DNA of 44,561 bases from Cellulophaga sp. BC115SP (GTDB lineage Bacteria > Bacteroidota > Bacteroidia > Cytophagales > Spirosomataceae). Below the pieces are notes generated by a model. It saw nothing but the letters and a program-made list of their open reading frames with translations, was not told the origin of the DNA and ran no database searches. Below are positions 12,357 to 41,862 of the stretch, piece after piece; the stretch's first letter is position 1, and each line of letters opens with the position of its first letter. The stretch lies in assembly GCF_009905545.1 (NCBI RefSeq), contig NZ_JAAALB010000047.1, forward strand, positions 1 through 44,561, read 5' to 3'. A program made the position numbers and the translations under genes.

Positions 12357-12953
12357 ATGACAGAAAAGAAAACAGCGTTGAAAATCAACAAAATCAGTAG
12401 TTTCTGGAACGAGAAATGGGTGGATATTCCGTTCACTGAAGTAGAAAATCCTCCTCGTTATCAGGTATCCAACTATGGAAGACTTAAAAGTTTCCAAAAT
12501 GACCCTGTAAATGGCGAAATTATTGCTGGCTCCAAAATACAAGGATATAAGTCTTTGAATATCAGAGCAAAAGGCAATAAGTCTTTAAATCGCTATGTAC
12601 ATAAACTTGTAGCTGAGTTCTTCTTGAAAAAAGACTCAGATGAAAAGAAATTTGTCGTCCACCTTGATCACGACAAGCTTAACAACCACTGGGAAAATTT
12701 GAAATGGGTAACACGTGATGAAATGACCATTCATAATCGTGACAATCCAGCCGTGAGAGACAAAGTAATTCCAAGAAGAACTAAAAACTATAAGCTCACA
12801 GAAAGTAAGGTTTTGATGATTAAAAAGATGCTTCGCTCAGACAAAAACCGTCTGAAAATGATTGCAAAGCAATTTGGCATCACTCACACTCAACTCAATC
12901 GCATTCGTTCTGGTGAAAACTGGGGCCATGTAAAGTTGGATGATGAAAAATAA
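12357..12953 (+). CDS. NUMOD4 - HNH endonuclease - HTH protein
   Basis: The 198-residue protein combines three modules found in phage and intron homing endonucleases. These are a NUMOD4 DNA-contact motif (about 18-65: W..IPFTEVENPPRYQVSNYGRLKSF), an HNH nuclease core (about 80-125: YVHKLVAEFF, HLDHDKLNNHWENLKWV, with His102 and the NN at 109-110) and a C-terminal helix-turn-helix of the NUMOD1 kind (ITHTQLNRIRSGENWGHV, about 175-192). It is free-standing, not inside an intron or a prophage here. Base composition looks like the neighbours. It may be a domesticated DNA-binding protein or a solitary homing nuclease. The stop codon overlaps the shared terminator at 12951. Confidence 0.83.
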   Translation: MTEKKTALKINKISSFWNEKWVDIPFTEVENPPRYQVSNYGRLKSFQNDPVNGEIIAGSKIQGYKSLNIRAKGNKSLNRYVHKLVAEFFLKKDSDEKKFVVHLDHDKLNNHWENLKWVTRDEMTIHNRDNPAVRDKVIPRRTKNYKLTESKVLMIKKMLRSDKNRLKMIAKQFGITHTQLNRIRSGENWGHVKLDDEK

Positions 12954-12987
12954 AAAGCGGTCGGAGATTAACTCCGACCGCTTTTTA
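12951..12987. terminator. Bidirectional terminator, GCGGTCGG type
   Basis: The perfect 15-bp stem AAAAAGCGGTCGGAG (12952-12966) / CTCCGACCGCTTTTT (12972-12986) has a 5-base loop, with A and T runs on both sides. It lies between the convergent HNH and histidine-kinase genes and overlaps the HNH stop codon, so it must end both transcripts. Its GCGGTCG core recurs in the terminators at 28301 and 40151. Confidence 0.9.
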
Positions 12988-13002
12988 TTTTTATAGATCG
13001 TA

Positions 13003-27258: not shown

Positions 27259-28215
27259 ATGAGAATACTGATATGTTTACAAGTTTTATTCCTGCTCATA
27301 CTAGGAAAATTTGACTCAGAGGCACAATATATCTCGATTCAGGGCATAAGTCCTGTTCATGCGGTTAATATTACAAAGAAAACCACTACCAATAAGCAAA
27401 CTACACCTGCCAATGCAGCTCCAGTAACGCTATTGCCTACTCCTGCTAGCCAAGTTGTAAGCTCAAATCCATATCTCAACAACACCCCTATGCCGAGCAG
27501 AGGGCGACGTATTGCGCTATTGATTGGTAATGGCACCTACAATTATGGAGGTAGTTTGGGCGAAAACCCCAAAAACGATGTTCAGGATTTGGGTAAAGCA
27601 TTAACCGCTTTAGGTTTTGAAGTAAAAATTTTAGTTGATGCAAATTTGCTAAATGTCAAACAAGCCATTAAAACTTTTCAAGAAAAAATTACTGGTGCAG
27701 AAATGGCCACTTTTTTCTACGCAGGTCACGGAATGGAAATTGCGGGCAAGAAATATATTATTCCTGTAGATGCCCAACTTAAGCGCCCTGAAGATTTAGA
27801 CGATTTTGCCTACAATATTGACTTTTTATTTAGAAGACTTAAAACAGGCGGTGCCAAACATAACCTGATTGTATTAGACGCTTGTAGAAATGACCCATTT
27901 CAGATTCAAGCCAGAGCCAATATTGAAACAGAAAGAGCGTGGAAAGATGCTAATGTCTTTAGTCCTATCCAACTCAACAGATTTAATGCAGGTAACGTAT
28001 ATTTGGCTATGGCAACCGACTGGGGCAATAAAGCGAAAAACGGATACGGTCGAAACGGGGTTTACACAACACAACTATTGAAGTTTCTAAAATCCGGAGA
28101 GCGCCTTGAAAGAGTTTTTGACTTGACAGGTATTCAAGTAAAAAGAGAAACGCAAATGGAACAAAACCCTCAATTCTTCAAAGAAGTATCTATTGCGGAT
28201 GAGTTCATTTTCTAG
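27259..28215 (+). CDS. Exported caspase-like cysteine protease (peptidase C14)
   Basis: The 318-residue protein has a signal peptide (1-22, LQVLFLLILGKFDSEAQ), a Thr/Pro-rich linker (about 35-78) and a caspase p20-like domain (83-290). The catalytic dyad is complete: H157 in FFYAGHGMEI and C209 in LIVLDACRNDPF. RRIALLIGNGTYNYGG (83-98) is the first strand. Such metacaspase/paracaspase-like enzymes usually cut after basic residues, but specificity cannot be read here. I choose ATG 27259, which places the signal peptide at the N-terminus. It follows the FGE-fold gene and is followed by a repeat element with a terminator. Confidence 0.88.
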   Translation: MRILICLQVLFLLILGKFDSEAQYISIQGISPVHAVNITKKTTTNKQTTPANAAPVTLLPTPASQVVSSNPYLNNTPMPSRGRRIALLIGNGTYNYGGSLGENPKNDVQDLGKALTALGFEVKILVDANLLNVKQAIKTFQEKITGAEMATFFYAGHGMEIAGKKYIIPVDAQLKRPEDLDDFAYNIDFLFRRLKTGGAKHNLIVLDACRNDPFQIQARANIETERAWKDANVFSPIQLNRFNAGNVYLAMATDWGNKAKNGYGRNGVYTTQLLKFLKSGERLERVFDLTGIQVKRETQMEQNPQFFKEVSIADEFIF

Positions 28216-28239
28216 ATTTTTTGATTATTTAAACGTTGT

Positions 28240-28344
28240 ATTCTAGCCGTAGAGACGCAATACTTTGTGTCATAAGCCAAGTCAGACATAGCATAGTAGT
28301 ATCAAAAAAGCGGTCGAAAAATATTTTTCGACCGCTTTTTTGAT
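28240..28344 (+). repeat. Mosaic repeat element E3 (about 105 bp)
   Basis: The element reads TTCTAGCCGTAGAGACG... through GCCAAGTCA to the palindrome ATCAAAAAAGCGGTCG.... The reverse complement of 40151-40253 is the same element with roughly 80 percent identity by eye. Both copies lie just behind plus-strand genes. The GTAGAGACGCAA module can fold into a small hairpin, and the 3' half is the terminator palindrome. No coding capacity. Confidence 0.82.
28301..28344. terminator. Perfect 44-bp palindrome, GCGGTCG terminator
   Basis: The left half (28301-28322, starting ATCAAAAAAGCGGTCG) is the exact reverse complement of the right half (28323-28344, ending CGACCGCTTTTTTGAT), with no unpaired spacer base. 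With T and A runs on each side it is a symmetric two-way terminator, located 85 bases after the caspase gene. Confidence 0.88.
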
Positions 28345-28563
28345 GAATAATTGGGCTATAAACCTAATACTAAAATTCGAGATGAGACAAGCCTATTTGG
28401 TTTACTTATTTCGAATTTCTTTAAAATAATCTTTCTTTTTGATTCCCTGTTGCATGAGTTTTAGGTCTACATTTGTGCGTAACGATTGCTACTATCGCCT
28501 TAAAATCAGTGGATTTATCTGCATCGTTATTGCATAATTTTATTTTCACAAATTCTAAATCTC
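28345..28563. other. Upstream region of the P-type ATPase gene
   Basis: This region is the last part of the 348-bp gap between the caspase and ATPase genes. It is AT-rich. TAATTTTA around 28535-28542 is one base from the -7 consensus and sits about 25 bases before the ATG. No clear metal-regulator operator palindrome is recognised. Confidence 0.35.
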
Positions 28564-30540
28564 ATGACTCAACATACACATACGTCACATGGTCACACCT
28601 GTTGCCATGACGACGAACAGGCTGAACATATCCATCATAATCACGAACATAACGAGCATGACCATGCAGGTCATTCGCATGATGGAGAAGTATCTTTTCT
28701 GCCTGCCATTATTTCTTTCATTTTATTGGGTATTGGTCTTACGCTCGACAATTGGATACAACCTACATGGTTTACGGGTTGGATACGAATGGCTTTATAC
28801 TTGGTTGCCTATATCCCTGTGGGCTTACCTGTTATGAAAGAAGCTTGGGAAAGTATATTGAAAAAAGATATTTTCTCTGAATTTCTCTTGATGAGTATTG
28901 CCACTGTTGGAGCTTTTGGCATTGGCGAATATCCTGAAGGGGTGGCAGTAATGCTGTTTTATGCTGTGGGAGAAAGTTTTCAGTCTTTGGCGGTAAAAAG
29001 AGCTAAATCAAATATTAAAAGCCTCCTCGACCAGCGCCCAGACACCGTAACAGTGGTGGAAAATAACCAGCCTATTGTAAAAAAAGCTATGACTGTTTCG
29101 GTTGGGGAAATTATCCAATTAAAAGCAGGCGAAAAATTAGCCCTAGACGGCGAACTCGTTTCCGAAACTTCTACCTTCAATACCTCCGCCTTGACTGGCG
29201 AAAGTAAGCCAGATACCAAGAGAAAAGGTGAACCCGTATTGGCTGGAATGCTCAATCTAAACTCGATTGCTTTAGTAAAAGTTACTACAGCGTATCAGGA
29301 CAGTAAATTGAGTAAGATTTTGGATTTAGTACAAAATGCCACTAAGCAAAAAGCGCCTACGGAGCTTTTTATTCGAAAATTCGCTAATATTTATACTCCA
29401 ATTGTAGTTGGTTTAGCAGTAGCGATTACGCTTCTACCCTATCTATTGGTGTCAGAATATCATTTTCAAGAATGGCTATATCGAGCATTGATTTTCTTGG
29501 TTATTTCTTGTCCTTGTGCCTTGGTCATTTCTATTCCTCTAGGGTATTTTGGCGGTATTGGTGCAGCCTCAAAAAATGGTATTTTGTTTAAAGGAAGTAA
29601 TTTCTTGGATGTAATAGCCACTATTCAACATGTTGTAATGGACAAAACGGGAACACTCACTGAAGGAGTTTTCAAAGTACAAGAAGTAGTCATTAAAGAT
29701 AATTTTGACAAAAATCATCTACTACAAATTGTAAATGCGTTGGAAAGTAAAAGTACACATCCTGTCGCTACAGCTATTCATGAATATGTTGGCAACATTG
29801 ATTACAATATCGATTTACAAGATATAGAGGAAATTGCAGGATATGGGCTCAGCGCAACGGTGGAGGACAAAGAGATTCTTATTGGTAATTTTAAATTATT
29901 AGAAAAAAAGGGGATTACTTATGATATTGACCCATCTCAAATAGTTTATACCGTACTCGCAATTGCGTATTCAGGTCAATTTGTGGGATACATTACTATT
30001 GCAGATAGTATCAAATCTGATGCCTCTTTGGCCATTCAACAACTTCATAAGTTAGGGGTAAAAACAACCATGTTGAGTGGCGACAAAAATTCGGTTGTAC
30101 AATACGTAGCTAAACAAATAGGCATTTCGGCTGCCTTTGGAGATTTGTTACCAGAAGATAAAGTCAATCAGGTAAAAGCCATCAAGGCGCAACAGGAAAC
30201 GGTAGCATTTGTCGGTGATGGTGTCAACGACGCTCCGGTAATTGCCTTGAGCGATGCAGGTATTGCGATGGGTGGTTTGGGTAGCGATGCCACCATAGAA
30301 ACTGCCGATATTGTCATTCAAGATGATCAACCTTCAAAAATAGCAACAGCTATTATCATCGGAAAAGAAACAAAACGTATCGTATGGCAAAATATCACGA
30401 TGGCCTTTGTGGTAAAAGCCTTTGTACTTGTACTTGGTGCAGGAGGTTTAGCAACTATGTGGGAAGCGGTTTTTGCTGATGTAGGTGTGGCATTGTTGGC
30501 TATTTTGAACGCTATTAGGATTCAACGTATGAAGTTTTAA
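28564..30540 (+). CDS. Zn/Cd/Co-type P1B ATPase with His-rich N-terminus
   Basis: The 658-residue metal-exporting ATPase of the ZntA/CadA group has TPVG-like membrane helices, an actuator TGES (211-214), the membrane metal site CPC (316-318), phosphorylation D360 in DKTGT, an HP motif (STHPVA, about 397-402) and GDGVNDAPV in the hinge. Instead of a CxxC heavy-metal-associated domain it starts with about 44 residues packed with His plus a CC pair (TSHGHTCCHDD), a likely Zn-binding tail. CPC with this His tail points to zinc, cadmium or cobalt rather than copper. It is a single gene ending in a strong terminator. Confidence 0.93.
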   Translation: MTQHTHTSHGHTCCHDDEQAEHIHHNHEHNEHDHAGHSHDGEVSFLPAIISFILLGIGLTLDNWIQPTWFTGWIRMALYLVAYIPVGLPVMKEAWESILKKDIFSEFLLMSIATVGAFGIGEYPEGVAVMLFYAVGESFQSLAVKRAKSNIKSLLDQRPDTVTVVENNQPIVKKAMTVSVGEIIQLKAGEKLALDGELVSETSTFNTSALTGESKPDTKRKGEPVLAGMLNLNSIALVKVTTAYQDSKLSKILDLVQNATKQKAPTELFIRKFANIYTPIVVGLAVAITLLPYLLVSEYHFQEWLYRALIFLVISCPCALVISIPLGYFGGIGAASKNGILFKGSNFLDVIATIQHVVMDKTGTLTEGVFKVQEVVIKDNFDKNHLLQIVNALESKSTHPVATAIHEYVGNIDYNIDLQDIEEIAGYGLSATVEDKEILIGNFKLLEKKGITYDIDPSQIVYTVLAIAYSGQFVGYITIADSIKSDASLAIQQLHKLGVKTTMLSGDKNSVVQYVAKQIGISAAFGDLLPEDKVNQVKAIKAQQETVAFVGDGVNDAPVIALSDAGIAMGGLGSDATIETADIVIQDDQPSKIATAIIIGKETKRIVWQNITMAFVVKAFVLVLGAGGLATMWEAVFADVGVALLAILNAIRIQRMKF

Positions 30541-30570
30541 TAGATTTGGTGCTTTAGAGTGACTATCTTA

Positions 30571-30614
30571 AATTTGCTTTCTGGTCTTGCACTTGACCAG
30601 AAAGCAAATTTTTA
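30571..30614 (+). terminator. Terminator after the P-type ATPase
   Basis: A perfect 16-bp stem (30571-30586, ending TTTCTGGTC; 30595-30610, starting GACCAGAAAGC) has an 8-base loop and a T tail, 31 bases after the ATPase stop. It also shows that the epimerase cannot start at an upstream frame beginning at 30587, because that codon lies in the hairpin loop. Confidence 0.9.
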
Positions 30615-30691
30615 CTTACCTTAAAGTAGGAACAGTATTCATGAAGGATATAATCCATCGCCCCTGCTTACTAACTATTTCAAAAACTCTC

Positions 30692-31633
30692 ATGAAAATC
30701 ACCCAAAGTACCTTTGGACTATTCAATGAATATGTTCTTCAAAATCCTTCTACTAATGAAGCCGTACATATCTTACCTGAATTAGGAGGAATTATTCATC
30801 AATTAGTCTTAAAAACAGAGACTGGTTTACACAAAATCATTAACTGTGGCAATACCCCTGAAGAGCTACTTTCGAGCCTGTTATCCTATCCTTCTACACA
30901 TTTGTTTCCTTGGGGAAATCGTGTAAAAAGTGGTCAATATGAATTTGAAGGTGCTAGTTATCAATTGCCACTCAATGAAGTAGGTTTACAAAATGCCCTT
31001 CATGGATTTGTGTACACGTCTCCTTTTAAAGTGTATGAAACTACCGAATCTGAAACTGAAGCAGTCTTAACGTTAGAATATCTATACAAGGGTGGTTATG
31101 TAGGTTATCCTTTTCCTTTTCAATTATTGATCAAGCATACCTTAAATGCAAAAGGATTAACACTTAGTTATACAATTAATAATATTGGTTCTGGAAATCT
31201 CCCAGTTAGCCTTGGCTGGCATCCGTACTTTAGTATTGAAGGCGAAACCAAAAATGATTGGACTGTTAGTTTCCCATCGACACACCAATACTTACTCGAC
31301 GACCAAATGTGTCCAGTAGATAGAACGCCAAAGCATTATGCAGAAGGTTTTAATTTGGATGGGCAGATTTTAGATGCGGTTTTTGCCGTAGAAAAACAAG
31401 AAATTGTAGAGGTTATTCTCAAATCTAACAAACAAGATTTGTCGATAATAGTATGGCAACAAGCAGGAGAGCAACAATTTAATTATAGCGTTGTGTACAC
31501 GCCACCAACAGGAGACCGCATTGCTATCGAGCCAATGACAGCCCCTACCAATGCACTTAACTCAAAAGAAAATTTGTTGATAATCAGTGCAGGAGAATCT
31601 TACACTGTAGAATGTGGAGTAACGGTATTTTAA
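30692..31633 (+). CDS. Aldose 1-epimerase family protein
   Basis: The 313-residue galactose-mutarotase-fold enzyme interconverts sugar anomers. The key residues are H104 (NALHGFVY), H177 (GWHPYF) and E280 (AIEPMTAPTNAL), the expected His-His-Glu set, together with the early FPWGNRVKSGQY segment (73-84). It has no signal peptide and acts in the cytoplasm. I start at ATG 30692, because the longer upstream reading crosses the ATPase terminator. It converges on the exopolyphosphatase-family gene, with the E4 inverted repeat between. Confidence 0.88.
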   Translation: MKITQSTFGLFNEYVLQNPSTNEAVHILPELGGIIHQLVLKTETGLHKIINCGNTPEELLSSLLSYPSTHLFPWGNRVKSGQYEFEGASYQLPLNEVGLQNALHGFVYTSPFKVYETTESETEAVLTLEYLYKGGYVGYPFPFQLLIKHTLNAKGLTLSYTINNIGSGNLPVSLGWHPYFSIEGETKNDWTVSFPSTHQYLLDDQMCPVDRTPKHYAEGFNLDGQILDAVFAVEKQEIVEVILKSNKQDLSIIVWQQAGEQQFNYSVVYTPPTGDRIAIEPMTAPTNALNSKENLLIISAGESYTVECGVTVF

Positions 31634-31635
31634 AT

Positions 31636-31857
31636 AATTGTGAGTTATGAATTGTGAATTAGGGGTGTACGAAGGATTTCCAATAATTGCGGATTTGGGA
31701 TTTCTGATTTCGGAAATAAAGAAAAATACCTCTATTTTTTACAAAACATAAATGATTACACTTCCGAAATCCAACATCCGATATCCGAAATAGACAGTTT
31801 TAGAATCATTCGTACAGTTATGAATTGTGAGTGATTCACAATTCATAACTCACAATT
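31636..31857. repeat. Large inverted repeat between convergent genes (mosaic palindrome E4)
   Basis: It fills the 227-bp gap. The outer arms (31636-31659 and 31834-31857) are a perfect 24-bp inverted repeat built of GTGAGTTATGAATTGTG. Further in, GTACGAAGGATTT (about 31667-31679) faces AATCATTCGTAC, and GGATTTGGGATTTCTGATTTCGG faces a diverged CCGAAATCCAACATCCGATATCCG. In addition 31816-31830 and 31836-31850 form a perfect 15-bp local hairpin. It may end both convergent transcripts. No coding capacity. Confidence 0.82.
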
Positions 31858-31860
31858 ACC

Positions 31861-32754
31861 TTATTTGTCTCTCTTTCGATTCTGGATTTTTTCGTAGACC
31901 ATCTGGATAATTCCATCTTTCAATCCTAAATCTGGTACGATAATACTTTTAGCTCCAGCCCATTTCATGGCGTTGAGATATATTTCGGCAGCTGGCACAA
32001 TTACATCGGCACGGTCAGCATTCAAACGAAGTTTATTAATTCGCTCTTCGTAAGTAAAACCAGCCACATATTCTTTAATCTTTGTCAACTCCTTCAAACT
32101 CATCGATGTTTCGGTATCATGGTTCGAAGCAATATTAAAGAGTTTATTTATATTACCTCCTGTACCCACAGCAGTTACCTGAGATTTAGACGGGTCTACG
32201 TGCATCTCAATCCACTTACGCATTTTTTCCCAATCACCTTCACGCTCTTTGTGTTCAAGCAAACGTACAGAGCCAATTTTGAATGAACGAGAAGCTACTT
32301 TCTGACGATTCATGTAGATATTCAACTCTGTCGAACCACCACCTACATCGATATGCAAATAATTGCTATCATCTAAAGCCTGAACCACCACATCATTAAT
32401 CAATTCAGCTTCTTTCGAACCATCGATGATATTGATTTTCATATCCAAAATTTTATGGATACGCGTGATAATAGCCTCAGCATTTCCAGCTTCACGCATG
32501 GCAGAAGTAGCACAAATCATGTAATCTTTTACTTCGTGCAAGTCCATCAATAATTTGTAGGCATTCAATAATTTGAAAATACGCACCTCTGATTCAGGGC
32601 TAATTTCTCCTTCATTAAATACATCGTGTCCAAGTCGAAGCGCAAAACGAACGTATTCTACCTTCTTAAAACTAATTTTTCCGTCATTCTCTAATACCTT
32701 CGAGATTTGCATTCGGGCGGCATTAGAGCCTATGTCAATCGCTGCAATTTTCAT
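31861..32754 (-). CDS. ppx: Ppx/GppA phosphatase family (exopolyphosphatase-like)
   Basis: The 297-residue protein has the ASKHA (actin-like) ATPase fold of exopolyphosphatase/pppGpp phosphohydrolase. Marks are AAIDIGSNAARM (3-14, phosphate 1), ATSAMREAGN (about 82-91), HIDVGGGSTELNIY (about 134-147, phosphate 2) and AVGTGGNINKL (about 195-205). It lacks the C-terminal HD-like domain of E. coli Ppx and is the short form common in Bacteroidota. It cleaves polyphosphate or (p)ppGpp-type substrates, and which one is not decided here. It follows the A-type carrier gene by 31 bp, so they are co-transcribed. Confidence 0.88.
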   Translation of the reverse strand: MKIAAIDIGSNAARMQISKVLENDGKISFKKVEYVRFALRLGHDVFNEGEISPESEVRIFKLLNAYKLLMDLHEVKDYMICATSAMREAGNAEAIITRIHKILDMKINIIDGSKEAELINDVVVQALDDSNYLHIDVGGGSTELNIYMNRQKVASRSFKIGSVRLLEHKEREGDWEKMRKWIEMHVDPSKSQVTAVGTGGNINKLFNIASNHDTETSMSLKELTKIKEYVAGFTYEERINKLRLNADRADVIVPAAEIYLNAMKWAGAKSIIVPDLGLKDGIIQMVYEKIQNRKRDK

Positions 32755-32785
32755 GCTTTCTTCTTTCTATGCAGTAGCTTTTTGC

Positions 32786-33076
32786 TTATTTATTAAACGT
32801 AAATCCATTTCCATCTTCCTCAAAATCAAGCTCTACGCCGATTAGGTACATAAGGTGATGTTTGTTGATAATGAGTTGAATACCATCTATTTCGTATAAC
32901 TCATCGTGATCCTCTTTTTTATCAAATCCAATCAGATAACTTGCACTACAGGCGCTTCCTCTCAAACCTACTCTCAAGTAATAATCCTCAGGAATTCCTT
33001 TGATGGTAAGTGCTTTTAGAATTTCTTGTTGAGCAATTTCAGTAATCGTAATTGGAATTATTGCTGGACTATTCAT
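32786..33076 (-). CDS. HesB/IscA-type Fe-S carrier fold lacking C-terminal cysteines
   Basis: The 96-residue A-type carrier domain has PITITEIAQQEILKAL (8-23), DYYLRVGLRGSACSASYLIGFD (about 31-52) and IDGIQLIINKHHLMYLIGVELDF (about 63-85). It ends in GNGFTFNK. Canonical relatives continue with NPN...CGCGxSF, which supplies two of three cluster-binding Cys. Here the frame stops right after GFTFN, and no CGCG is found in any frame just downstream. Only the GSAC Cys region remains. It may have lost cluster binding or carry another role. It is first in an operon with ppx. Confidence 0.85.
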   Translation of the reverse strand: MNSPAIIPITITEIAQQEILKALTIKGIPEDYYLRVGLRGSACSASYLIGFDKKEDHDELYEIDGIQLIINKHHLMYLIGVELDFEEDGNGFTFNK

Positions 33077-33215
33077 TATTCGTGTCTAAAAACAATTCGG
33101 TTGATATGACTGACTTTGTACACAATTTGCTTCTTCTCAAACGAAGCTATACAGTTCAGGGCGAAAATACTTATTTTTGAAAGATTTTCCACAAAACAAC
33201 GTTAATAACCCTACA

Positions 33216-33241
33216 TTACAAAATGTATTTAATCATTTGTA
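33216..33241. repeat. Short near-palindrome upstream of 33291 gene
   Basis: TTACAAAATG (33216-33225) faces CATTTGTAA (33234-33242 region) with one bulged A and an 8-base centre. It lies in the divergent promoter region between the A-type carrier gene and the next plus-strand gene, so an operator is possible. No regulator can be named. Confidence 0.35.
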
Positions 33242-33290
33242 AAACTGATAAAGCTCTTGGCAGAAAGTATTACAGATAAACCCCAACTTT

Positions 33291-33812
33291 ATGGAAATAG
33301 TTGCCGATTTAATTAAAGTATTAGTACCTGCTAGTTTAGTCCTTTGGGCTATGTACTTGACATTGAGTTCTTTTTTGAGAAAAGAATTTGCACAAAAAAA
33401 TCTTGAACAGCGTTTTGAAGCTCAAAAAACGGTATTACCCATTCGCCTAGAGGCTTATGAGCGTATCTGTTTATTACTAGAACGAATGTTACCCAACAAT
33501 CTCCTCATTCGCTTGTCTAATCCCGAGTTCAATGTTGTAAGCTTTCAGCAAGTATTAGTTGCTGAAATTCGTGCAGAGCTAGCTCATAATTTTTCACAAC
33601 AATTATACGTCAGTGACGACGCATGGTTAAGTGTAAAAAATGCCTTGAACGAAACCATTTCAATGATTAATCTCTCGGCTCAAGAACTAGACCCGAATGC
33701 CCCATCAATTGAATTATCTAAAAAAGTAATCGAAAAGGTCTTACAAAATCAACATTTCAGTACTGAGTCTGCTTTGGCATTTGTAAAAGACGAAGCTCGA
33801 AAATTATTTTAG
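33291..33812 (+). CDS. Conserved Bacteroidota membrane-anchored protein, unknown function
   Basis: The 173-residue protein has one N-terminal helix (about 7-28, IKVLVPASLVLWAMYLTLSSFL) and then a mostly helical soluble part. LPIRLEAYERICLLLERMLPNNLLIRL (about 48-74) and EIRAELAHNFSQQLYVSDDAWLSVKNA are well-formed amphipathic helices of a kind I recall from uncharacterised Bacteroidota proteins. No catalytic motif is visible. It is followed 125 bp later by the MFS gene on the same strand. Confidence 0.7.
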   Translation: MEIVADLIKVLVPASLVLWAMYLTLSSFLRKEFAQKNLEQRFEAQKTVLPIRLEAYERICLLLERMLPNNLLIRLSNPEFNVVSFQQVLVAEIRAELAHNFSQQLYVSDDAWLSVKNALNETISMINLSAQELDPNAPSIELSKKVIEKVLQNQHFSTESALAFVKDEARKLF

Positions 33813-33937
33813 CATATTGTGCACCCATTCTTCCTTTGTAACTAGAAAAGGAATCACTAAATTACTGTAGTAAAAAGAGTAGTATTCAACTCGAGTTTCT
33901 CTTTATGAAAAACAACATATAATCAAGTCCCTAAACT

Positions 33938-35182
33938 ATGCAACAAAATCTTTCTCAGAAAACCAACTTACAGCATCTTTTCAGTATTCCTGTGATTGTA
34001 GCCGCCTTAGGTTACTTTGTCGATATTTATGATCTATTGCTTTTTGGCATTGTACGTGTACCAAGCTTACAAGATATGGGGCTTAGTAAGGACGAAATCG
34101 GTGTTATTGGCAAAAATATTCTTAACTGGCAAATGGGCGGTTTATTATTGGGAGGTATCTTATGGGGTATCTTAGGTGATAAAAAAGGTCGTTTGTCGGT
34201 ATTGTTTGGTTCCATTCTTACCTACTCTTTGGCCAATATTGGTTGTGGTTTTGTCAAAGACCCTACCACTTATGCGCTACTACGTTTTGTGGCGGGCATT
34301 GGTTTGGCTGGCGAACTTGGCGCAGGTATCACCTTGGTGTCAGAAGTATTACCCAAAGAACTTCGTGCTATTGGAACCTCTATTGTAGCTGGTGTGGGTT
34401 TGTTTGGCGCCGTGGCGGGGTATTTCACCGTAGAATTATTTGGTGGCTGGCGTACAGCTTACTTTGTAGGCGGGGGCTTAGGAGTGATTTTGCTATTACT
34501 TCGTATTAGTGTTTTCGAATCAGGTATGTTCGAAAATATTAAGCATCAAACGGGGGTTAAAAAAGGGAATTTCTTTGCACTTTTCACCAATGCCGACCGC
34601 TTGTCACGTTACTTAAAGTGTATTGCGATTGGTATGCCAACGTGGTTTGTGATTGGTATTTTGGCAACATTTGCGAATGAGTTTGGGGAAAAATTAGGCA
34701 TTGCTGAAGAAATCAAACCTGGGAAAGCTATCATGTTTTGTTATATAGGTCTGGCGATTGGTGACTTGGCAAGTGGTTTTATTTCTCAGTTTTTAAGCTC
34801 TCGTAAAAAGGCCGTTTCCTTATTACTTGTACTTACCTTGATTTGTAGCATTTATTACCTTTATGCAGGTATGAACTCTGCACAGGAATTATATACCGTT
34901 TGTGTATTTGCAGGCTTTTCTGTTGGTTACTGGGCCATGTTTGTGACCATAGGAGCAGAACAATTTGGTACCAACCTCAGAGCCACAGCCGCTACAACGG
35001 TACCTAACATGGTTCGCGGAACGGTGATTGGTATGACTTCGCTTTATTCTGGTCTTAAACCAAGTTTGGATGTATTTAACGCAGCTGCTATTGTGGGCAT
35101 TATTTGTTTTGTACTAGCCTTCTATTCTATACTAACTATTCCAGAAACACATAACAAAGATTTGGATTATCTGGAAGAGTAA
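33938..35182 (+). CDS. MFS transporter (metabolite:H+ symporter type)
   Basis: The 414-residue protein has 12 predicted membrane helices. The loop 2-3 signature is GILGDKKGRLSVLFGS (about 78-93), and RFVAGIGLAGELGAGITLVSEVLP (about 117-140) matches the helix 4-5 motif of the metabolite:H+ symporter/sugar-transporter branch. FVDIYDLLLFGIV in helix 1 (about 27-39) places charged Asp residues where proton-coupled members have them. The substrate is unknown. It converges on the Lrp/AsnC gene, with the large E5 palindrome between. Confidence 0.88.
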   Translation: MQQNLSQKTNLQHLFSIPVIVAALGYFVDIYDLLLFGIVRVPSLQDMGLSKDEIGVIGKNILNWQMGGLLLGGILWGILGDKKGRLSVLFGSILTYSLANIGCGFVKDPTTYALLRFVAGIGLAGELGAGITLVSEVLPKELRAIGTSIVAGVGLFGAVAGYFTVELFGGWRTAYFVGGGLGVILLLLRISVFESGMFENIKHQTGVKKGNFFALFTNADRLSRYLKCIAIGMPTWFVIGILATFANEFGEKLGIAEEIKPGKAIMFCYIGLAIGDLASGFISQFLSSRKKAVSLLLVLTLICSIYYLYAGMNSAQELYTVCVFAGFSVGYWAMFVTIGAEQFGTNLRATAATTVPNMVRGTVIGMTSLYSGLKPSLDVFNAAAIVGIICFVLAFYSILTIPETHNKDLDYLEE

Positions 35183-35189
35183 AATAAGT

Positions 35190-35545
35190 GTAGAGTTTTG
35201 AATGCGGAGTAAATGATTTAGTGAATGGTGGTTGAGTGAATGAGTGATTAATCTTTAAGTCCACATTTCAGCAGTAGAGACGCAATGCTTTACCTCTAAA
35301 AAAAAGGCGTTCGAAATGAGTTTTTCGAACGCCTTTTTGATTGAATGTCAGGATATTTCTATGAAGGTAAACACCTGTTTGATGAATACACACTATTTAG
35401 ACGCAAAGCATTGCGTCTCTACAAGCGAAAATCATGTAAAACAATCACTAAATCACTCAACCACCATTCACTAAATTCAAAAGGACTCATGGATAGAATA
35501 GCCGTGAATAATAAAACTCTGCATTCAACACTCAAAACTCCGCAC
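35190..35545. repeat. Large nested inverted repeat (mosaic palindrome E5)
   Basis: This fills the 366-bp gap between the convergent MFS and Lrp genes. Three modules occur on each side in mirror order. Outermost are AGAGTTTTGAATGCGGAGT (35192-35210) and its diverged partner ending ACTCCGCACTC (about 35516-35548). Next is the phrase with GTGAATGGTGGTTGAGTGA (35221-35239), with its reverse complement at 35443-35476. Then comes GTAGAGACGCAATGCTTT (35274-35291), with its partner AAAGCATTGCGTCTCTAC (35405-35422). In the middle is the terminator 35301-35338. A 71-codon frame inside is spurious. Confidence 0.85.
35301..35338. terminator. Terminator, GCGTTCGAA type, inside E5
   Basis: The perfect 16-bp stem AAAAAGGCGTTCGAAA (35301-35316) / TTTCGAACGCCTTTTT (35323-35338) has a 6-base loop. 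The same stem, with a different loop, appears at 41773-41811. It can act in both directions between the convergent genes. Confidence 0.88.
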
Positions 35546-35548
35546 TCC

Positions 35549-36007
35549 CTAGATTTCTAATGCTGTTTTGGATTTTATTTCGCTCATCACGAAAGTACTA
35601 TGCGTACTGCCAATATTATCGAGAGAGGCGAGTCGATTCATCAAAAAACTCTGATATTCACGCATATCTTTTACCACAATTTTCAGCATAAAATCGTATT
35701 CGCCTGAAATATTGTAACATTCCATAACCTCCTCTAATTGAACCACATCACGCACAAATCTAGCGCCAGCCTCTTGGGCATGTTCTTTTAAACGAATATT
35801 ACAGAATACCATCAAGTCTTTCTCCACTTTTTCTCTGTCTACCAACGCCACATATCCTTTAATGACTCCCTCTTTTTCAAGTCTTCTTACCCTTTCGTAC
35901 ACAGGTGTAGGCGACAAGTTGAGCCGATTCGAAAGTTCTTTGGTGGTAAGATGAGCATCTTCTTGTAGATTTCTAAGAATCGCTTTGTCAATTGAATCGA
36001 GTTTCAT
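35549..36007 (-). CDS. Lrp/AsnC-family transcriptional regulator
   Basis: The 152-residue protein has an N-terminal winged HTH (about 4-60: LDSIDKAILRNLQEDAHLTTKELSNRLNLSPTPVYERVRRLEKEGVIKGY) and a C-terminal RAM ligand domain (about 65-145, CNIRLKEHAQEAG, GEYDFMLKIVVKDMREYQSFL). These proteins bind amino acids and form octamers or dimers. It is divergent from metH with 288 bp between. An inverted repeat (36080-36128) lies in that gap and is a candidate operator, so it could regulate itself and methionine synthesis, which is an inference. Confidence 0.92.
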   Translation of the reverse strand: MKLDSIDKAILRNLQEDAHLTTKELSNRLNLSPTPVYERVRRLEKEGVIKGYVALVDREKVEKDLMVFCNIRLKEHAQEAGARFVRDVVQLEEVMECYNISGEYDFMLKIVVKDMREYQSFLMNRLASLDNIGSTHSTFVMSEIKSKTALEI

Positions 36008-36079
36008 AGCCGTTATTTTTTCATTTTTCTAGTGAAAACACTTCAATATTTAGATAAACTCTCTAAAATATTTTTATTT

Positions 36080-36128
36080 AAAGATAATACATCTAATTTA
36101 AAAGAAGCAATAAACAAATATTATCTTT
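36080..36128. promoter_or_regulatory. Candidate operator: spaced inverted repeat
   Basis: AAAGATAATA (36080-36089) and TATTATCTTT (36119-36128) are exact reverse complements 29 bases apart. The second arm ends 5 bases before the metH -7 box at 36134. Spaced half-sites between divergent genes fit an Lrp-type regulator wrapping DNA. Binding is inferred. Confidence 0.45.
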
Positions 36129-36133
36129 TGATG

Positions 36134-36141
36134 TAACTTTG
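36134..36141 (+). promoter_or_regulatory. Candidate -7 box of metH
   Basis: TAACTTTG matches TAnnTTTG exactly. It would give metH a leader of about 148 bases. I could not recognise a cobalamin, SAM or SAH riboswitch in that leader. No TTG lies at the -33 distance. Confidence 0.5.
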
Positions 36142-36295
36142 TAGAAGTAGATTCGAGTTGTAGGCTTTTAGCTAGAAAAATGAAGTAATACAAGGATACT
36201 ATTTCAGTATGGTATAAACTAAAATAGTTATTCTTTTGGCTACTAGTCTATTTGAAAACACATTACCGATAAAATTATAATTAACCAGAAAACTG

Positions 36296-39200
36296 ATGCG
36301 TCCGAACATCCGTGAAATCTTAAAAGATAGAATCCTTGTACTAGATGGTGCAATGGGTTCTTTGATCCAACAATATAAATTGACTGATGCTGATTACCGT
36401 GGTGAAAAATTCAAAGATTTTCCGCACGAAGTAAAAGGCAACAACGATATGCTTTCGATTACTCGTCCTGACGTAATCAAAGAAATTCATGCCATGTACT
36501 TTGAGGCTGGGGCTGATATTGCTGAAACAAACACGTTTTCGGCAACGTCTATTGCCATGGCTGATTATCACATGGAAGAATATGTGTATGAACTTAATTA
36601 CTGCTCGGCCAAAATTGCTCGTGAAGTAGCAGATGAGTTTACGGCAAAAAATCCTGCTAAACCTCGTTTTGTAACAGGTTCTATCGGACCAACTAACCGT
36701 ACTTTATCCCTTTCACCTGATGTAAATGACCCTGGTTTTCGCGCAGTAACATTCGACGAATTAGTAGAAGCTTATACGGAACAAATTCGTGGTTTGGTAG
36801 ATGGCGGTGCAGATGCATTATTGGTAGAAACAATTTTCGATACCTTAAATGCCAAAGCTGCCCTATTCGCAATTGATTTATTCTTCAAAAATCACCCCGA
36901 AAAAGAATATCTTCCTGTAATGGTTTCAGGAACAATTACGGATGCTTCGGGTCGTACGTTGTCGGGACAAACAACTGAGGCATTTTTGACTTCTGTTTCG
37001 CACATGCCATTGTTATCTATTGGCTTAAACTGTGCCCTCGGTGCCGATTTGATGCGTCCTTACGTGCAGACACTTGCAGTAAATGCTCCTTTCATGGTTT
37101 CGGCTCACCCAAATGCAGGTTTGCCAAACGAAATGGGAGAATATGACCAGTCGCCTGAGCAAATGAGCGAGATTGTGGAAGACTTCTTACAACATAGCTT
37201 TATTAATATTATCGGAGGTTGTTGCGGAACAACTCCAGCACATATTAAAGCTATTGCAGATGTTGCGGCAAAATATCCTCCTCGTCAGCTTCCAGCGCTT
37301 GAGCCTGTTCAAAAGCTTTCAGGTTTGGAACCTTTGAAAATTACGAAAGAAACCAATTTTGTGAACGTTGGAGAGCGTTGTAATGTAACTGGTTCGAAAA
37401 AATTTGCTCGTTTAATCCGTGACAATAAATACGATGAAGCGATTGCCGTTGCACGTGAGCAAGTAGACGGAGGAGCACAGGTAATAGATGTGAACATGGA
37501 TGAAGGGATGATTGATGGTGTGCAGGCTATGACCAAGTTCATGAATCTCTTGATGGCTGAACCTGATATTGCTCGTTTGCCAATTATGATTGACTCTTCG
37601 AAATGGGAAGTGATTGAAGCTGGGTTGAAATGCGTACAAGGAAAGTCTATTGTAAACTCGATTTCATTAAAAGAAGGCGTTGAGAAATTCATAGAATCTG
37701 CCGAAAAAGTAAAACGTTACGGTGCCGCTGCGGTAGTAATGGCATTTGACGAGCAAGGACAAGCTGACTCTTACGAGCGTCGTATCGAAATCTGCGAGCG
37801 TGCCTATCGTATTTTGGTGGATGAGGTACATTTCCCTCCTGAAGACATTATTTTTGACCCTAATATTTTGACTGTTGCAACAGGTATCGACGACCACAAC
37901 AATTATGCGGTAGACTTTATCAATGCAACTCGTTGGATTAAAGAAAACCTACCTTATGCTAAGGTATCAGGAGGTGTTTCGAATATCTCATTCTCTTTCA
38001 GAGGAAATGAACCTGTAAGAGAGGCAATGCACACCGTATTTTTGTACTATGCCATCAAAGCAGGTATGGATATGGGTATCGTAAATGCTGGTCAACTAGG
38101 CGTATATGACGATATTCCAAAAGATATGTTGGAGCTTTGCGAAGATGTTTTATTAAACCGTCGTCCAGACTCAACAGAGCGCTTGGTAACATTTGCAGAA
38201 ACGGTAAAATCAAAAGGTAAAGAACAAGTTGTAGACAATAGCTGGCGTCAATTGCCCGTAGGAAAACGCTTGGAACACGCTCTTATCAAAGGACTTACCG
38301 AATTTATTGACCAAGATGTAGAAGAAGCTCGTCAGCAAGTAGAAAGACCTTTACAAGTAATTGAAGGGCCACTGATGGACGGTATGAACGTAGTAGGTGA
38401 CTTGTTTGGTGAAGGAAAAATGTTCTTGCCACAAGTAGTAAAATCGGCACGTGTAATGAAAAAGGCAGTGGCTTATCTCCTTCCATTTATTGAAGAAGAA
38501 AAAGCAGGCGGTGGAAGTACTAGTGCAGGTAAAATTTTGTTAGCAACGGTAAAAGGCGATGTTCATGACATCGGTAAAAATATCGTTTCGGTGGTATTGG
38601 GTTGTAACAACTACGAAGTGATTGACTTAGGTGTAATGGTGCCAACTGACAAAATCTTGGCAGCAGCCAAAGAACATAATGTCGATATCATTGGGCTATC
38701 GGGTTTGATCACTCCTTCATTGGACGAAATGGTTGGAGTTGCCAAAGAAATGGAGCGTCAAGGTTTCACCATGCCATTATTGATTGGTGGTGCTACTACG
38801 TCTCGTATCCATACAGCAGTAAAAATCGACCCACATTATCACGGTCCAGTAATTCACGTATTGGATGCCTCTCGTTCGGTTCCTGTGGCGGGTCGCTTGA
38901 TGCAAAATGAAAAAACGCACCAAGAAATTTACGACGAAATCAAGACAGAATACGCTCGTCTTCGTGACGAACATGCAGGTCGTAAACGTGATAAAAATTA
39001 TATTTCTATCGATGCCGCTCGTGCAAATAAAACGGCGATAGATTGGAGTAATTTCCAAGGTACAAAACCAAAATTCTTGGGTACGAAGGTATTTGAAGAC
39101 TATGATATTGCCGAAATCGCCAAATATATCGACTGGACTCCATTCTTCTCGACTTGGCAATTATCTGGAAAATATCCAAAAATATTTGAAAACGAAGTAG

Positions 39201-40066
39201 TAGGCGCGGAAGCCAAAAAACTCTATGAAGATGCACAAAAAATGCTTCAGAAAGTGATTTCGGAAAAAAGCCTCAAAGCACGTGCAGTAATTGGTTTTTA
39301 TCCTGCCAACTCTATCGAAGATGATATTATTCTTCATCCTTTCGAGGAGTACGAATATGATGCCGCAGGACAAGGTGCATTGAAAGGGAAAGGCTACAGA
39401 GTGTTGAGTAATACAGCTGTAAATAGCAATGGAGAATTGGTATCTCCACAAGCACAAACGGTATTACATCATTTGCGTCAACAAGGACAAAAAGCTTCTA
39501 AGTTGCCAAATATCTGTTTGTCTGACTTTATTGCTCCCGAATCAAGTGGTAAAGAAGATTATATTGGTGCATTTGCTGTTACCGCAGGTTTGGGTATCGA
39601 AACTTTGTTGGAACAATACGAAAAAGACCATGACGACTACAACTCTATCATGCTCAAAGCTATTGCCGACCGTTTGGCAGAAGCATTGGCAGAATTGATG
39701 CACGAACGAGTTCGTAAAGAGTTTTGGGGATATGCCAACGAAGAAACATTCTCGAATGAAGAACTGATTTCGGAAGAATATCAAGGTATTCGCCCTGCGC
39801 CAGGCTATCCAGCTTGTCCAGACCATACTGAAAAACGTACGTTATTTGATTTGTTACAAGCAGAACGAATCGGCATTACGTTAACAGAAAGTTTTGCCAT
39901 GTATCCTGCTAGTTCAGTTTCAGGATGGTATTTCTCTCATCCAGATGCTAAATATTTTGGTTTGGGCAAAATCGCTAAAGATCAAGTAGAAGACTATGCC
40001 AAACGTAAAGGTATGGATTTGGAAACTGTAGAAAGATGGCTTGCTCCAGTGCTGAACTATGAATAA
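36296..40066 (+). CDS. metH: Cobalamin-dependent methionine synthase
   Basis: The 1256-residue, four-module enzyme moves the methyl group of methyl-THF to homocysteine through B12. In order it has: a homocysteine/Zn module (1-330, [17 protein letters not shown] and [10 protein letters not shown] as Zn ligands); a pterin module (about 350-620, [17 protein letters not shown]); a B12 cap and Rossmann module (about 640-890, [25 protein letters not shown] with the cobalt-ligand His); and an AdoMet activation module (about 930-1240, [15 protein letters not shown]). Length matches E. coli MetH (1227). MetF at 16947-17900 supplies its methyl donor. It is followed by repeat element E6 with a terminator. 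Confidence 0.97.
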
Positions 40067-40077
40067 TTAGATTTATT

Positions 40078-40253
40078 GATTGAATAGAGATTGAGTGAAT
40101 GAGTGATTATTCCTTACATCTACGTTTTATTAGTATAACGATATATTACCATCAAAAGCGGTCGGAAAGTAATTTCTGACCGCTTTTTTGATATTTCTAC
40201 AGTATGTTTGACTTGGCTTAAGACGTAAAATATTACGTCTCTACGGCTAGAAT
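40078..40253 (-). repeat. Mosaic repeat element E6
   Basis: This lies behind metH. It starts with the phrase TTGAGTGAATGAGTGATTA (about 40091-40109) shared with E5 and E7. The part 40151-40253 is an inverted copy of E3 (28240-28344), read on the minus strand from TTCTAGCCGTAGAGACG to the terminator. Its AGACGTAA / TTACGTCT hairpin (40221-40240) differs from AGACGCAA / TTGCGTCT in E5 by a compensating pair. Confidence 0.82.
40151..40192. terminator. Terminator after metH, GCGGTCG type
   Basis: The stem ATCAAAAGCGGTCGGAAA (40151-40168) pairs with TTTCTGACCGCTTTTTTGAT (40173-40192), with one G-T pair and two extra A/T on one side. The loop is 4 bases. It starts 84 bases after the metH stop. Confidence 0.85.
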
Positions 40254-40560
40254 ACCAATTCTTTCATAATCATTAGATAAAATTGAGGAACGAAATCCCC
40301 CCTGAATACTTTTTGGTGTTTTGTCCAGTAATCTCAACTATGGCACACGTTCCTTATGATTCGTTAATGCCATTAACTGATATGCTATTAACAAATAACT
40401 TTTTTTTATTCAAAAAAATAAAATGAATTTTTATTCATTATTCTTGAACTCAAATTCACTTTATTTTGTCTGTACTAAAGCGAAGTAATAATTCGTCTAT
40501 AGCAATGCTTAAAATCAAGTAGTTAAAACTTTTATTACTGAGATTTCGAACTCTTTCTCT
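40254..40560. other. Upstream region of NAPE-PLD-like gene
   Basis: This AT-rich segment holds the 15-base string TTTTGTCCAGTAATC (40319-40333), which recurs exactly at 44457-44471 in another intergenic region. TTTATTTTG near 40460 is one base off spacing from the -7 consensus. No gene or structured RNA is recognised. Confidence 0.4.
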
Positions 40561-41676
40561 ATGTTACAAAAACTTAAAAAAATGATTATTTACGTATTGG
40601 TATTTCTAGTTGTTGTTGCGCTAGGAATTTATATATTTATGCAACAAGCACAATTTGGACAAGAACCACAAGGAAAAAGACTTGAACGTATTCAAAAATC
40701 GCCTTATTACAAAGATGGTGCTTTTCAAAATCTGAGCCCCACTCCTGCTTTGGCTGAAGATGCCTCTTACTGGGACATCATCAAAGCTCAACTCCAAACC
40801 ATCCCCAATAAAGAACCCAAACAAACAATTCCATCTGTAAAAACAGACTTGAAAAATCTATCGAACGATAGCACGAAAATTATTTGGTTTGGACATTCTT
40901 CTTATTTGATTCACACCAATGGAAAAAATATTTTAGTTGACCCTGTCTTTAGTGGTAATGCCTCGCCTGTTTCTTTTTTTGGAAAAAACTACGAGGGGAG
41001 TAATGTCTACAGCGTAGAAGATATGCCTGAAATTGATATTTTACTCATTACCCACGATCACTACGACCATTTGGATTATCCAACTGTGACAGCCTTGAAA
41101 TCAAAAGTTAAGAAAGTCGTAACATCTTTGGGTACTGGTCAACACTTTGAATATTGGGGCTTTAACCCTGACAATATTATAGAATTAGAATGGTGGCAAA
41201 ATGCTCAACCTATCGAAGGATTTGAAATTACGTCAACGCCTGCCAGACATTTCTCTGGACGTAAGTTTACTCGTAATTTGGCGCTTTGGTCGTCGTATGT
41301 TTTAAAAACGCCAACAGAACAATTATACTTGGGTGGAGACTCAGGATATGATTCGCACTTCAAACAAATCGGAGAAAAATTCGGAAGCTTTGATTTGGCT
41401 ATTTTAGAATGTGGTCAGTATAATTATTACTGGAAATATATTCACATGATGCCAGAAGAAGTAACTCAAGCTGCAAAAGATTTGAATACCAAAGTACTTA
41501 TGCCTGTTCACTGGAGTAAATTTACGTTGGCTTTGCACCCTTGGAAAGAGCCTATCGAACGTGTAACCAAATCCGCAAAAGAACTAGGTCTACCATTTAC
41601 CAACCCAAAAATTGGCGAACCTGTTGTCATAAACGGTTCATTATTACAAAATCCTTGGTGGAAAAATGTAGAGTAA
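40561..41676 (+). CDS. Membrane-anchored MBL-fold hydrolase, NAPE-PLD-like
   Basis: The 371-residue protein has an N-terminal helix (about 8-28, MIIYVLVFLVVVALGIYIFM) that anchors it in the membrane or exports it. The MBL domain shows WFGHSSYLI (about 109-117), NILVDPVFSG (about 123-132), the metal site THDHYDHLDY (about 164-173), PARHFSGR (about 225-232), LGGDSGYD (about 259-266) and MPVHWSKF (about 315-322). This is the N-acyl-phosphatidylethanolamine phospholipase D / UlaG-like branch, so a phospholipid-type substrate is plausible but unproven. It is a single gene between E6 and E7. Confidence 0.88.
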   Translation: MLQKLKKMIIYVLVFLVVVALGIYIFMQQAQFGQEPQGKRLERIQKSPYYKDGAFQNLSPTPALAEDASYWDIIKAQLQTIPNKEPKQTIPSVKTDLKNLSNDSTKIIWFGHSSYLIHTNGKNILVDPVFSGNASPVSFFGKNYEGSNVYSVEDMPEIDILLITHDHYDHLDYPTVTALKSKVKKVVTSLGTGQHFEYWGFNPDNIIELEWWQNAQPIEGFEITSTPARHFSGRKFTRNLALWSSYVLKTPTEQLYLGGDSGYDSHFKQIGEKFGSFDLAILECGQYNYYWKYIHMMPEEVTQAAKDLNTKVLMPVHWSKFTLALHPWKEPIERVTKSAKELGLPFTNPKIGEPVVINGSLLQNPWWKNVE

Positions 41677-41680
41677 ACCA

Positions 41681-41862
41681 TTAAGTGATTTAGTGTTTGA
41701 GTGAATGTGTGATTATTTTTAATTGTAGAGTCGCAATGCTTTGCGTCTGAAAGATGGGAACACATTAATATCAAAAAAGGCGTTCGAAATATGTTTTCGA
41801 ACGCCTTTTTTAATGAAAGTTTTTCTGCCTAATGCCTACGGCTTACAGCCTAAAGCTTACCT
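41681..41862. repeat. Mosaic repeat element E7
   Basis: This lies between the convergent MBL and TMEM220-like genes. In order it has TGATTTAGTG...TTGAGTGAATG (41690-41707) as in E5, GTAGAGTCGCAATGCTTTGCGTCT-like module B (41725-41748), terminator 41773-41811, and a run of GCCTAATGCC / AGCCTAAAGC phrases (41827-41856) resembling those in E1. The last part overlaps the end of the TMEM220-like gene. Confidence 0.8.
41773..41811. terminator. Terminator, GCGTTCGAA type, inside E7
   Basis: The stem AAAAAAGGCGTTCGAAA (41773-41789) pairs with TTTCGAACGCCTTTTTT (41795-41811) around a 5-base loop. It is nearly the same hairpin as 35301-35338 and sits between convergent genes. Confidence 0.88.

Follow-up and report, generated by a model that had tools for sequence, protein, structure and literature searches.

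In four intergenic gaps, designated E3, E5, E6, and E7, the 44,561-nucleotide stretch analyzed here (the window; contig NZ_JAAALB010000047.1 of Cellulophaga sp. BC115SP) carries copies of a miniature inverted-repeat transposable element (MITE) of about 210 bp, bounded by terminal inverted repeats (TIRs) of the form (A)AACATGAGTCATCCC. The element represents a real and sizeable family with a likely parental insertion sequence (IS), and the probable explanation of its distribution is that these MITEs share their ends with that IS, land on intrinsic transcription terminators, and swap the resident hairpins for their own; the exchange of terminator hairpins by insertion is the strongest new point to emerge. 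The original prediction had described three short modules, A, B, and C, shared by the four gaps and had regarded them as one mobile or regulatory family linked to terminators. Family and mobility both stand, but the profile, the TIRs, and the empty sites described below support the whole TIR-bounded MITE, and not the modules, as the mobile unit; since all four sites match one TIR-ended profile, the three modules are internal segments of a single element.

The MITE family and its central hairpin

The source genome is referred to as G000 and its relatives as G001 to G004, orthologous loci being compared in G000, G001, and G003. The sequence common to the contexts of modules B and C extends to both sides and ends in opposite-facing copies of ACATGAGTCATCCC, which, with at most one mismatch, occurs 113 times in G000, 98 in G001, 131 in G002, 89 in G003, and once in G004, compared with one match in each reversed control. 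A hidden Markov model (HMM) of 211 positions, seeded with an intact copy outside the window (C130:156218-156429) and refined on the copies found, including those of the window, located 46 sites in 1,244,561 bp of G000 and none at an E value of ≤1 in the reversed sequence, so that the dozens of copies anticipated in the original prediction exist. Simple scaling gives about 262 copies per genome if the sample is typical, the sample being nonrandom and consisting of contigs C1, C110, and C130, part of C2, a stretch of C35 chosen for its RAYT gene, and the window. Across the whole genome, module B has 159 matches (reversed pattern, 0), module A has 220 with up to two mismatches (reversed control, 4), and the strict hairpin pattern of module C has 59 (reversed control, 0); these scans exclude the AT-rich chance similarity, or want of further copies, that was named at the outset as grounds for abandoning the idea.

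The 29 copies with paired TIRs are short (156 to 298 bp) and contain no transposase gene, the same TIR bounds nine complete IS copies, and presence or absence varies between genomes: when the orthologous intervals of 53 MITE sites were compared among the three genomes, 27 of 99 one-way comparisons, from 14 loci, were empty, confirming the expectation of empty sites in close relatives. Target site duplication is usual for MITEs but not universal; here, direct repeats of at least 4 bp, variable in length, flank 4 of the 29 MITEs and 1 of 9 IS copies (the nine-copy sets used for TIRs and for duplications differ by one, L190 and L182).

The arms that surround the hairpin are of types designated alpha and beta (both with A and B) and gamma (without A and B), and a delta arm, recognized on visual inspection of copies in G001 and G002, lacks B and resembles the leader of the IS. 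Both arms could be classified at 25 of 43 hairpins, as alpha/gamma (14), alpha/beta (7), or beta/gamma (4); same-type pairs were absent, so arm pairing is nonrandom, and random shuffling was rejected. That absence might reflect, for example, the loss of long perfect palindromes. Module order does vary, as had been noticed, and this variation reflects mostly the different arms around the hairpin, together with nesting and decay, rather than a shuffling of modules. Nesting of one MITE in another was detected at 3 of 53 TIR ends, one of them weak; the copy at C110:90217 lies in the opposite orientation in G001, as judged from alignments only; and no clear sign of arm turnover emerged from pairwise identity at 36 pairs of occupied orthologous sites. 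Other recurrent palindromes, of the TAGGGTGCGACTTAAGTCGCACCCTA type, lie near MITE or IS copies on contig C20 of G003 (about 50250 to 50310) and at L164, L165, and L224.

Module C agrees, in both pattern and stem pairing, with its initial description as a terminator hairpin with a GCGGTCG or GCGTTCG core. Each of 12 stem positions is Watson-Crick paired in 37 to 40 of 40 copies (three armless hairpins having been dropped from the 43), with two-sided changes at positions 2, 3, 5, 7, 9, 10, and 11, a count that is tempered by the finding of these hairpins through seeds on both strands, which favors paired stems. Across the 43 hairpins, the folding energy has a median of -24.0 kcal/mol, and the GC-rich stem, T tract, and conserved pairing are those of an intrinsic terminator. 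Because A and T tracts occur on both sides, C reads as a terminator in two directions, and we take it to be the central two-way terminator hairpin of the MITE, which would act as such in the cell. A hairpin was scored inside the MITE in 22 of 28 MITE-bearing convergent gaps.

Placement at gene 3' ends and probable loss of native terminators

With genes taken as open reading frames (ORFs) of at least 90 amino acids, picked by script and uncurated, 43 of the 46 MITE sites are intergenic with a gene on each side, 2 lie in a called ORF, and 1 lies at an edge. The 43 gaps comprise 29 convergent, 14 tandem, and no divergent pairs, against 139, 612, and 144, respectively, in 895 background gaps (P = 3e-14 for the convergent excess and 5e-4 for the divergent deficit), and the 72 neighboring 3' ends lie at a median of 20.5 bp from the MITE, the 14 neighboring 5' ends at a median of 194 bp. 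The bias toward 3' ends that had been predicted is thereby borne out. The sample also holds 47 sites of a second MITE family, of about 160 bp, with the ends TGTACGAA/TTCGTACA; one copy, at window positions 31658 to 31816, lies at the center of an extended AATTGTGAGTTATGAATT palindrome, and it is this palindrome that is empty in G003. This second family follows the background (9 convergent, 27 tandem, and 7 divergent of 43 gaps), so that 3'-end placement is no general property of small repeats here.

At 7 of the 14 loci with an empty allele, an intrinsic terminator stands where the MITE sits in another genome and is missing from the MITE allele; on the evidence of alignments, these are C130:156219, C130:167334, C130:198073, and C130:206947 in G000, C23:24776 in G001, and C20:95178 and C20:50342 in G003. 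The seven native stems are mutually unrelated by eye, with folding energies of -17.8 to -28.8 kcal/mol across eight alleles. At four of the seven (C130:156219, C23:24776, C20:95178, and C20:50342), the two empty genomes share a homologous terminator, which makes the MITE the newcomer at those loci. The cleanest junction is that at C130:198073, where AATAAA[stem-loop]TTTAT corresponds to AATAAA[MITE]TTTAT. Among convergent gaps of 25 to 700 bp, moreover, a terminator-like hairpin outside the MITE was found in only 2 of 28 MITE-bearing gaps, compared with 50 of 100 MITE-free gaps (P = 2e-5).

A candidate mover and a proposed route of exchange

In G001, TIR pairs 1,464 and 1,465 bp apart flank a transposase gene, and a search of named genomes yielded 45 IS loci in Flectobacillus, Emticicia, Spirosoma, Phaeodactylibacter, Flavilitoribacter, and metagenome-assembled genomes (MAGs) of Lewinella and Bacteroidota. 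Nine complete 1.46-kb copies, distributed over several genera of Bacteroidota, share their ends with the MITE; seven carry ACATGAGTCATCCCGAATTTT at each end, L197 and L209 deviate at one end, and protein identity across the nine is 55 to 100% (L209, with stops in frame, was left out of protein work, and the broken transposase frame of L161 was left so). In all six aligned transposases, D130, D231, and E361 and the residues Y354-R357-E361-K368 are invariant, in keeping with the DDE triad and the accompanying Y(2)R(3)E(6)K motif of the IS4 family, and the nearest solved structure is that of the Tn5 transposase (E = 5e-4; residues 329 to 400); structure prediction was poor (mean pLDDT, 58.9). IS4 family members duplicate about 9 to 12 bp of target, and among the nine complete copies no such duplication was found apart from one 4-bp match; this lack of a regular duplication, together with scores below the curated cutoffs of every model matched (best, NF033590, 50.9 bits against 160; PF01609, 20.6 against 23), leads us to label the element IS4-like and not to file it as a member. 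Presumably, then, the likely mover of the MITE is this IS with an IS4-like (Tn5-like) DDE transposase, acting in trans. G000 itself retains only a partial IS copy at a contig end. At L160 (about 1126 to 1140), one Flectobacillus longus transposase contains a five-residue insertion, around GCGGCGGCCGCC, that is absent from the five others aligned and is possibly an assembly or adapter artifact.

The IS also leans toward gene 3' ends, the nearest ORF presenting its 3' end to 38 of 53 IS ends (Flectobacillus, 23 of 33; Emticicia, 6 of 7; Spirosoma, 3 of 4; others, 6 of 9). Of 56 TIR ends in IS loci, 2 were set aside as MITE ends, and 7 of the remaining 54 abut MITE arms with scores of 22 to 32, compared with a 99.5% limit of 13 and a maximum of 15 in shuffled sequence; 3 more abut arms weakly (13.5 to 14), and all ten belong to Flectobacillus sp. 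BAB-3569. The arm alignments at these ten ends all stop short of the GCGGTCG core, and for three insertions, L181, L215 with L204, and L222 with L202 (the latter two paired through a common orthologue in G000), hairpin C is missing from both flanks. The L215/L204 site, in BAB-3569, retains a native hairpin in G000, and one place thus displays the series native terminator, MITE, and IS in MITE.

We suggest that the IS transposase moves the MITE in trans and that both elements target intrinsic terminators at gene 3' ends, recognizing the stem by its structure; the outer A/T tracts of the terminator would stay and the stem-loop between them would give way to the element, perhaps being removed in the same step as insertion. 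As the MITE would bring its own two-way hairpin, the site would probably keep a terminator, so that insertion would be tolerated, especially where genes converge. Hairpin C may in turn serve as a target for further IS and MITE insertions, giving rise to nested, shuffled arrays, with module B a REP-like palindrome carried in the arms and module A the part of the arm between TIR and B. In its fullest form, the proposal is that a DDE transposase reads terminators by their hairpin structure, excises the stem-loop, and inserts its own element in one step, thereby swapping terminators for MITEs at some 260 3'-end sites of one genome and targeting its own progeny; this we advance tentatively, judging it to be not quite an even call.

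The same alleles could have arisen in two steps, insertion beside a native terminator (through preference or through tolerance at 3' ends) being followed by loss of the redundant hairpin through ordinary deletion. Selection alone could produce the 3'-end bias, most of the MITE copies are old, with a median pairwise identity of 0.68 among 27, one MITE gap, C1:38417, still has a terminator beside the element, and the IS copies at L221 and L224 adjoin an intact palindrome or hairpin, so that the rule of hairpin removal is not absolute. The IS copies of BAB-3569, however, are young (median identity, 0.993 over 300 bp in 78 pairs; lowest, 0.877) and none of their ten arm-flanked ends still has the hairpin core, which speaks against slow later loss; the three insertions with neither flank retaining the hairpin and the scarcity of a second terminator-like hairpin in MITE-bearing convergent gaps point the same way, and we regard the two-step route as unlikely. 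That the sites are merely ordinary terminators, made alike by host bias and set among chance AT-rich neighbors, has a negligible probability. Terminators do share A/T tracts by nature, and the window contains one C-like hairpin without a MITE arm, at 12953 to 12989 (core GCGGTCGG, between convergent ORFs), which may be a chance likeness or kin to the hairpin once taken up by the MITE; yet the 64 terminator-like hairpins of the sample comprise 24 with the C core and 40 others, most of them unrelated stems and a few of them C variants, the reversed controls gave 0 to 4 matches for the modules and 0 for the profile, and among 119 genomes the strict C pattern occurs in 4, the source included, all within the genus.

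A third reading holds that modules A, B, and C form a family of the REPIN/BIME type moved by a RAYT, and the original prediction had advised a search for such a transposase. Module B does have the hallmark of a repetitive extragenic palindromic (REP) sequence, a GTAG head followed by a palindrome, as judged from the sequence and its relatives; it was found in 45 of 119 genomes and, in the four other genera examined, forms inverted pairs without C. The only RAYT found in G000 (L021, 1444 to 1995; G000:C35:56505-57056; NF047646, 97 bits), however, sits among a different palindrome, GGTGCTGGAT..ATCCAGCACC, and the core of module B occurs in none of the 31 RAYT loci scanned (30 of 50 matches in 15 chosen genomes plus that of G000), so that the pairing of a RAYT gene with flanking copies of its own REP was not seen for B. 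The mobile boundaries, furthermore, are the TIRs of the IS, outside A and B, and gamma and delta arms have no B. A RAYT as mover is therefore rejected, as is a REPIN identity for the whole element, of which B is only one part, and this third reading is very improbable. The sequence GGTGCTGGA, tied to the RAYT palindrome, has 17 matches in the sample. Paired inverted copies of GTAGAGACGCAA with centers of varying length were observed in G030, G032, G100, and G086 (L102 to L121), which belong to other Cytophagales genera.

Several observations weigh against hairpin exchange by the IS and its MITEs, the explanation that we favor. Half of the loci with empty alleles (7 of 14) yielded no terminator: C110:90217, C110:284717, C130:134119, E5, and G001 C1:79818, with only weak partial matches at C20:197241 and C75:93968; half of the MITE-free convergent gaps also have none by a similar rule. 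Of the seven loci that did, C130:198073 alone fits cleanly on both sides, extra or changed boundary bases being present at C130:206947 and C130:167334 and untidy boundaries at C20:50342. The evidence for replacement comes from loci other than the four sites of the window, of which E3, E6, and E7 are occupied in the relatives, and the empty allele of E5 (G003) holds another palindrome and not a terminator. No terminator-like hairpin was scored inside the MITE in 6 of the 28 MITE-bearing convergent gaps, 15 of the 53 IS ends face a 5' end (9), lie inside an ORF (5), or have no ORF (1), and the left flank of L222 keeps the scrap GACCGAAA. Residual stem bases preserved as inverted flanks were considered and gave a weak signal only (mean complementary run across 38 elements, 2.18 against 1.79 permuted), and the first 8 flank bases show nothing (410 of 2,000 permutations reach the observed value), so that the flanks mark no exact cut point. 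G002, finally, has its 131 TIR sites and no IS of the same protein, so the mover there has been lost or is a different one.

The sites of the window and comparison with known systems

Within the window, the modules lie where they were first reported, with small corrections: A is present in E5, E6, and E7 and B in all four gaps, some copies being one-base variants. E3 (28222 to 28388, plus strand; HMM E value, 2.1e-38), 7 bp downstream of the stop codon at 28215, is a decayed copy with an alpha arm, hairpin C, and a gamma arm; module B, the GTAG-headed palindrome, occupies 28249 to 28272 (plus strand) and begins with the exact 12-mer GTAGAGACGCAA, C (core GCGGTCG; 28301 to 28344) is a two-way intrinsic terminator by its sequence and pattern, and no module A occurs at the site. 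E5 (35213 to 35491; 1.1e-25 on the plus strand and 1.3e-28 on the minus strand), between convergent genes, carries A and B arms on either side of one hairpin, with the exact 18-mer of A at 35232 to 35249 (plus strand), B at 35274 to 35297 (plus strand) and, inverted, at 35399 to 35422 (minus strand), both with the exact 12-mer (the latter at 35411 to 35422), and C (core GCGTTCG) at 35300 to 35341; A and B are indeed mirrored, as had been claimed for the full set, and a single palindromic C forms the center.

E6 (40085 to 40272; 1.5e-26 on the minus strand and 9.3e-15 on the plus strand) lies 19 bp past the stop codon at 40066 and contains the exact 18-mer of A at 40091 to 40108 (plus strand), C (core GCGGTCGG) at 40150 to 40191, and a one-base variant of B at 40221 to 40244 (minus strand). 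E7 (41686 to 41822, plus strand; 1.1e-26), between convergent genes whose stop codons lie 10 and 27 bp from it, has A with one change at 41697 to 41714 and a one-base variant of B at 41725 to 41748, both on the plus strand, and C (core GCGTTCG) at 41770 to 41814; the hairpins of E5, E6, and E7 were also recovered by hairpin search. Related sequence occupies the E3 site in G001 and G003, the left arm in G001 being of another type (alignments only); the orthologue of E5 is empty in G003 and reduced to a single B palindrome in G001; E7 is occupied in both, as is E6, half of which is lost in G001. E5 is enclosed by a further inverted repeat, GAGTTTTGAATGCGGAG (35199 to 35213 and 35513 to 35546), the sole remnant in G003, an arrangement of nested palindromes. 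Rfam and tRNA scans of the window returned no matches.

The reading offered here links an IS, its MITEs, and the transcription terminators of the host, three things that are usually met apart. If insertion truly swaps the hairpin, it would give a transposon a harmless way to land, allow a single repeat to become a common terminator of a genome, and represent a new outcome of transposition in which the target hairpin is lost instead of the target site being duplicated; a tool for structure-guided insertion might also come of it. Among the matches listed from the open PMC literature (titles and the beginnings of abstracts, with subscription papers and ISfinder outside the search), none describes this IS, the MITE, or a hairpin-replacing insertion, and one review of MITEs, in the portion consulted, treats the formation of terminators by such elements as conceivable (PMC10969869).

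Partial accounts of four known systems provide the closest comparisons. Module B resembles REP and REPIN sequences of the GTAG class in its GTAG head, short palindrome, and frequent inverted pairing in other Cytophagales but differs in that no link to a RAYT was found and in being carried inside a TIR-bounded MITE (PMC3733652, in part). Within the IS4 family, to which the Tn5/IS50 group belongs, ISRm22 inserts into REPs, with direct repeats described; the IS reported here shares the DDE triad and YREK motif of the IS4 family and, with ISRm22, palindromic targets, whereas it shows no regular target duplication, leaves the target hairpin missing after insertion, and scores below the family cutoffs (PMC1525189, in part). 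Group IIC introns are likewise mobile elements with terminator stem-loops as targets but are retroelements (PMC7923331, in part). The nearest relative in kind is the SPRITE repeat of Streptococcus pneumoniae, which, in the part of the source available to us, is a short repeat, dispersed in 30 copies, that looks like a Rho-independent terminator and is enriched near 3' ends and where genes converge; it has only AAAA/TTTT ends, and no comparable empty site is reported (PMC3049150). Compared by description, the MITE differs in its long TIRs, empty sites, parental IS, and native terminators in empty alleles, and it thus offers, for terminator-like repeats such as SPRITE, as far as that account extends, a parallel in which both empty sites and a candidate mover are available.

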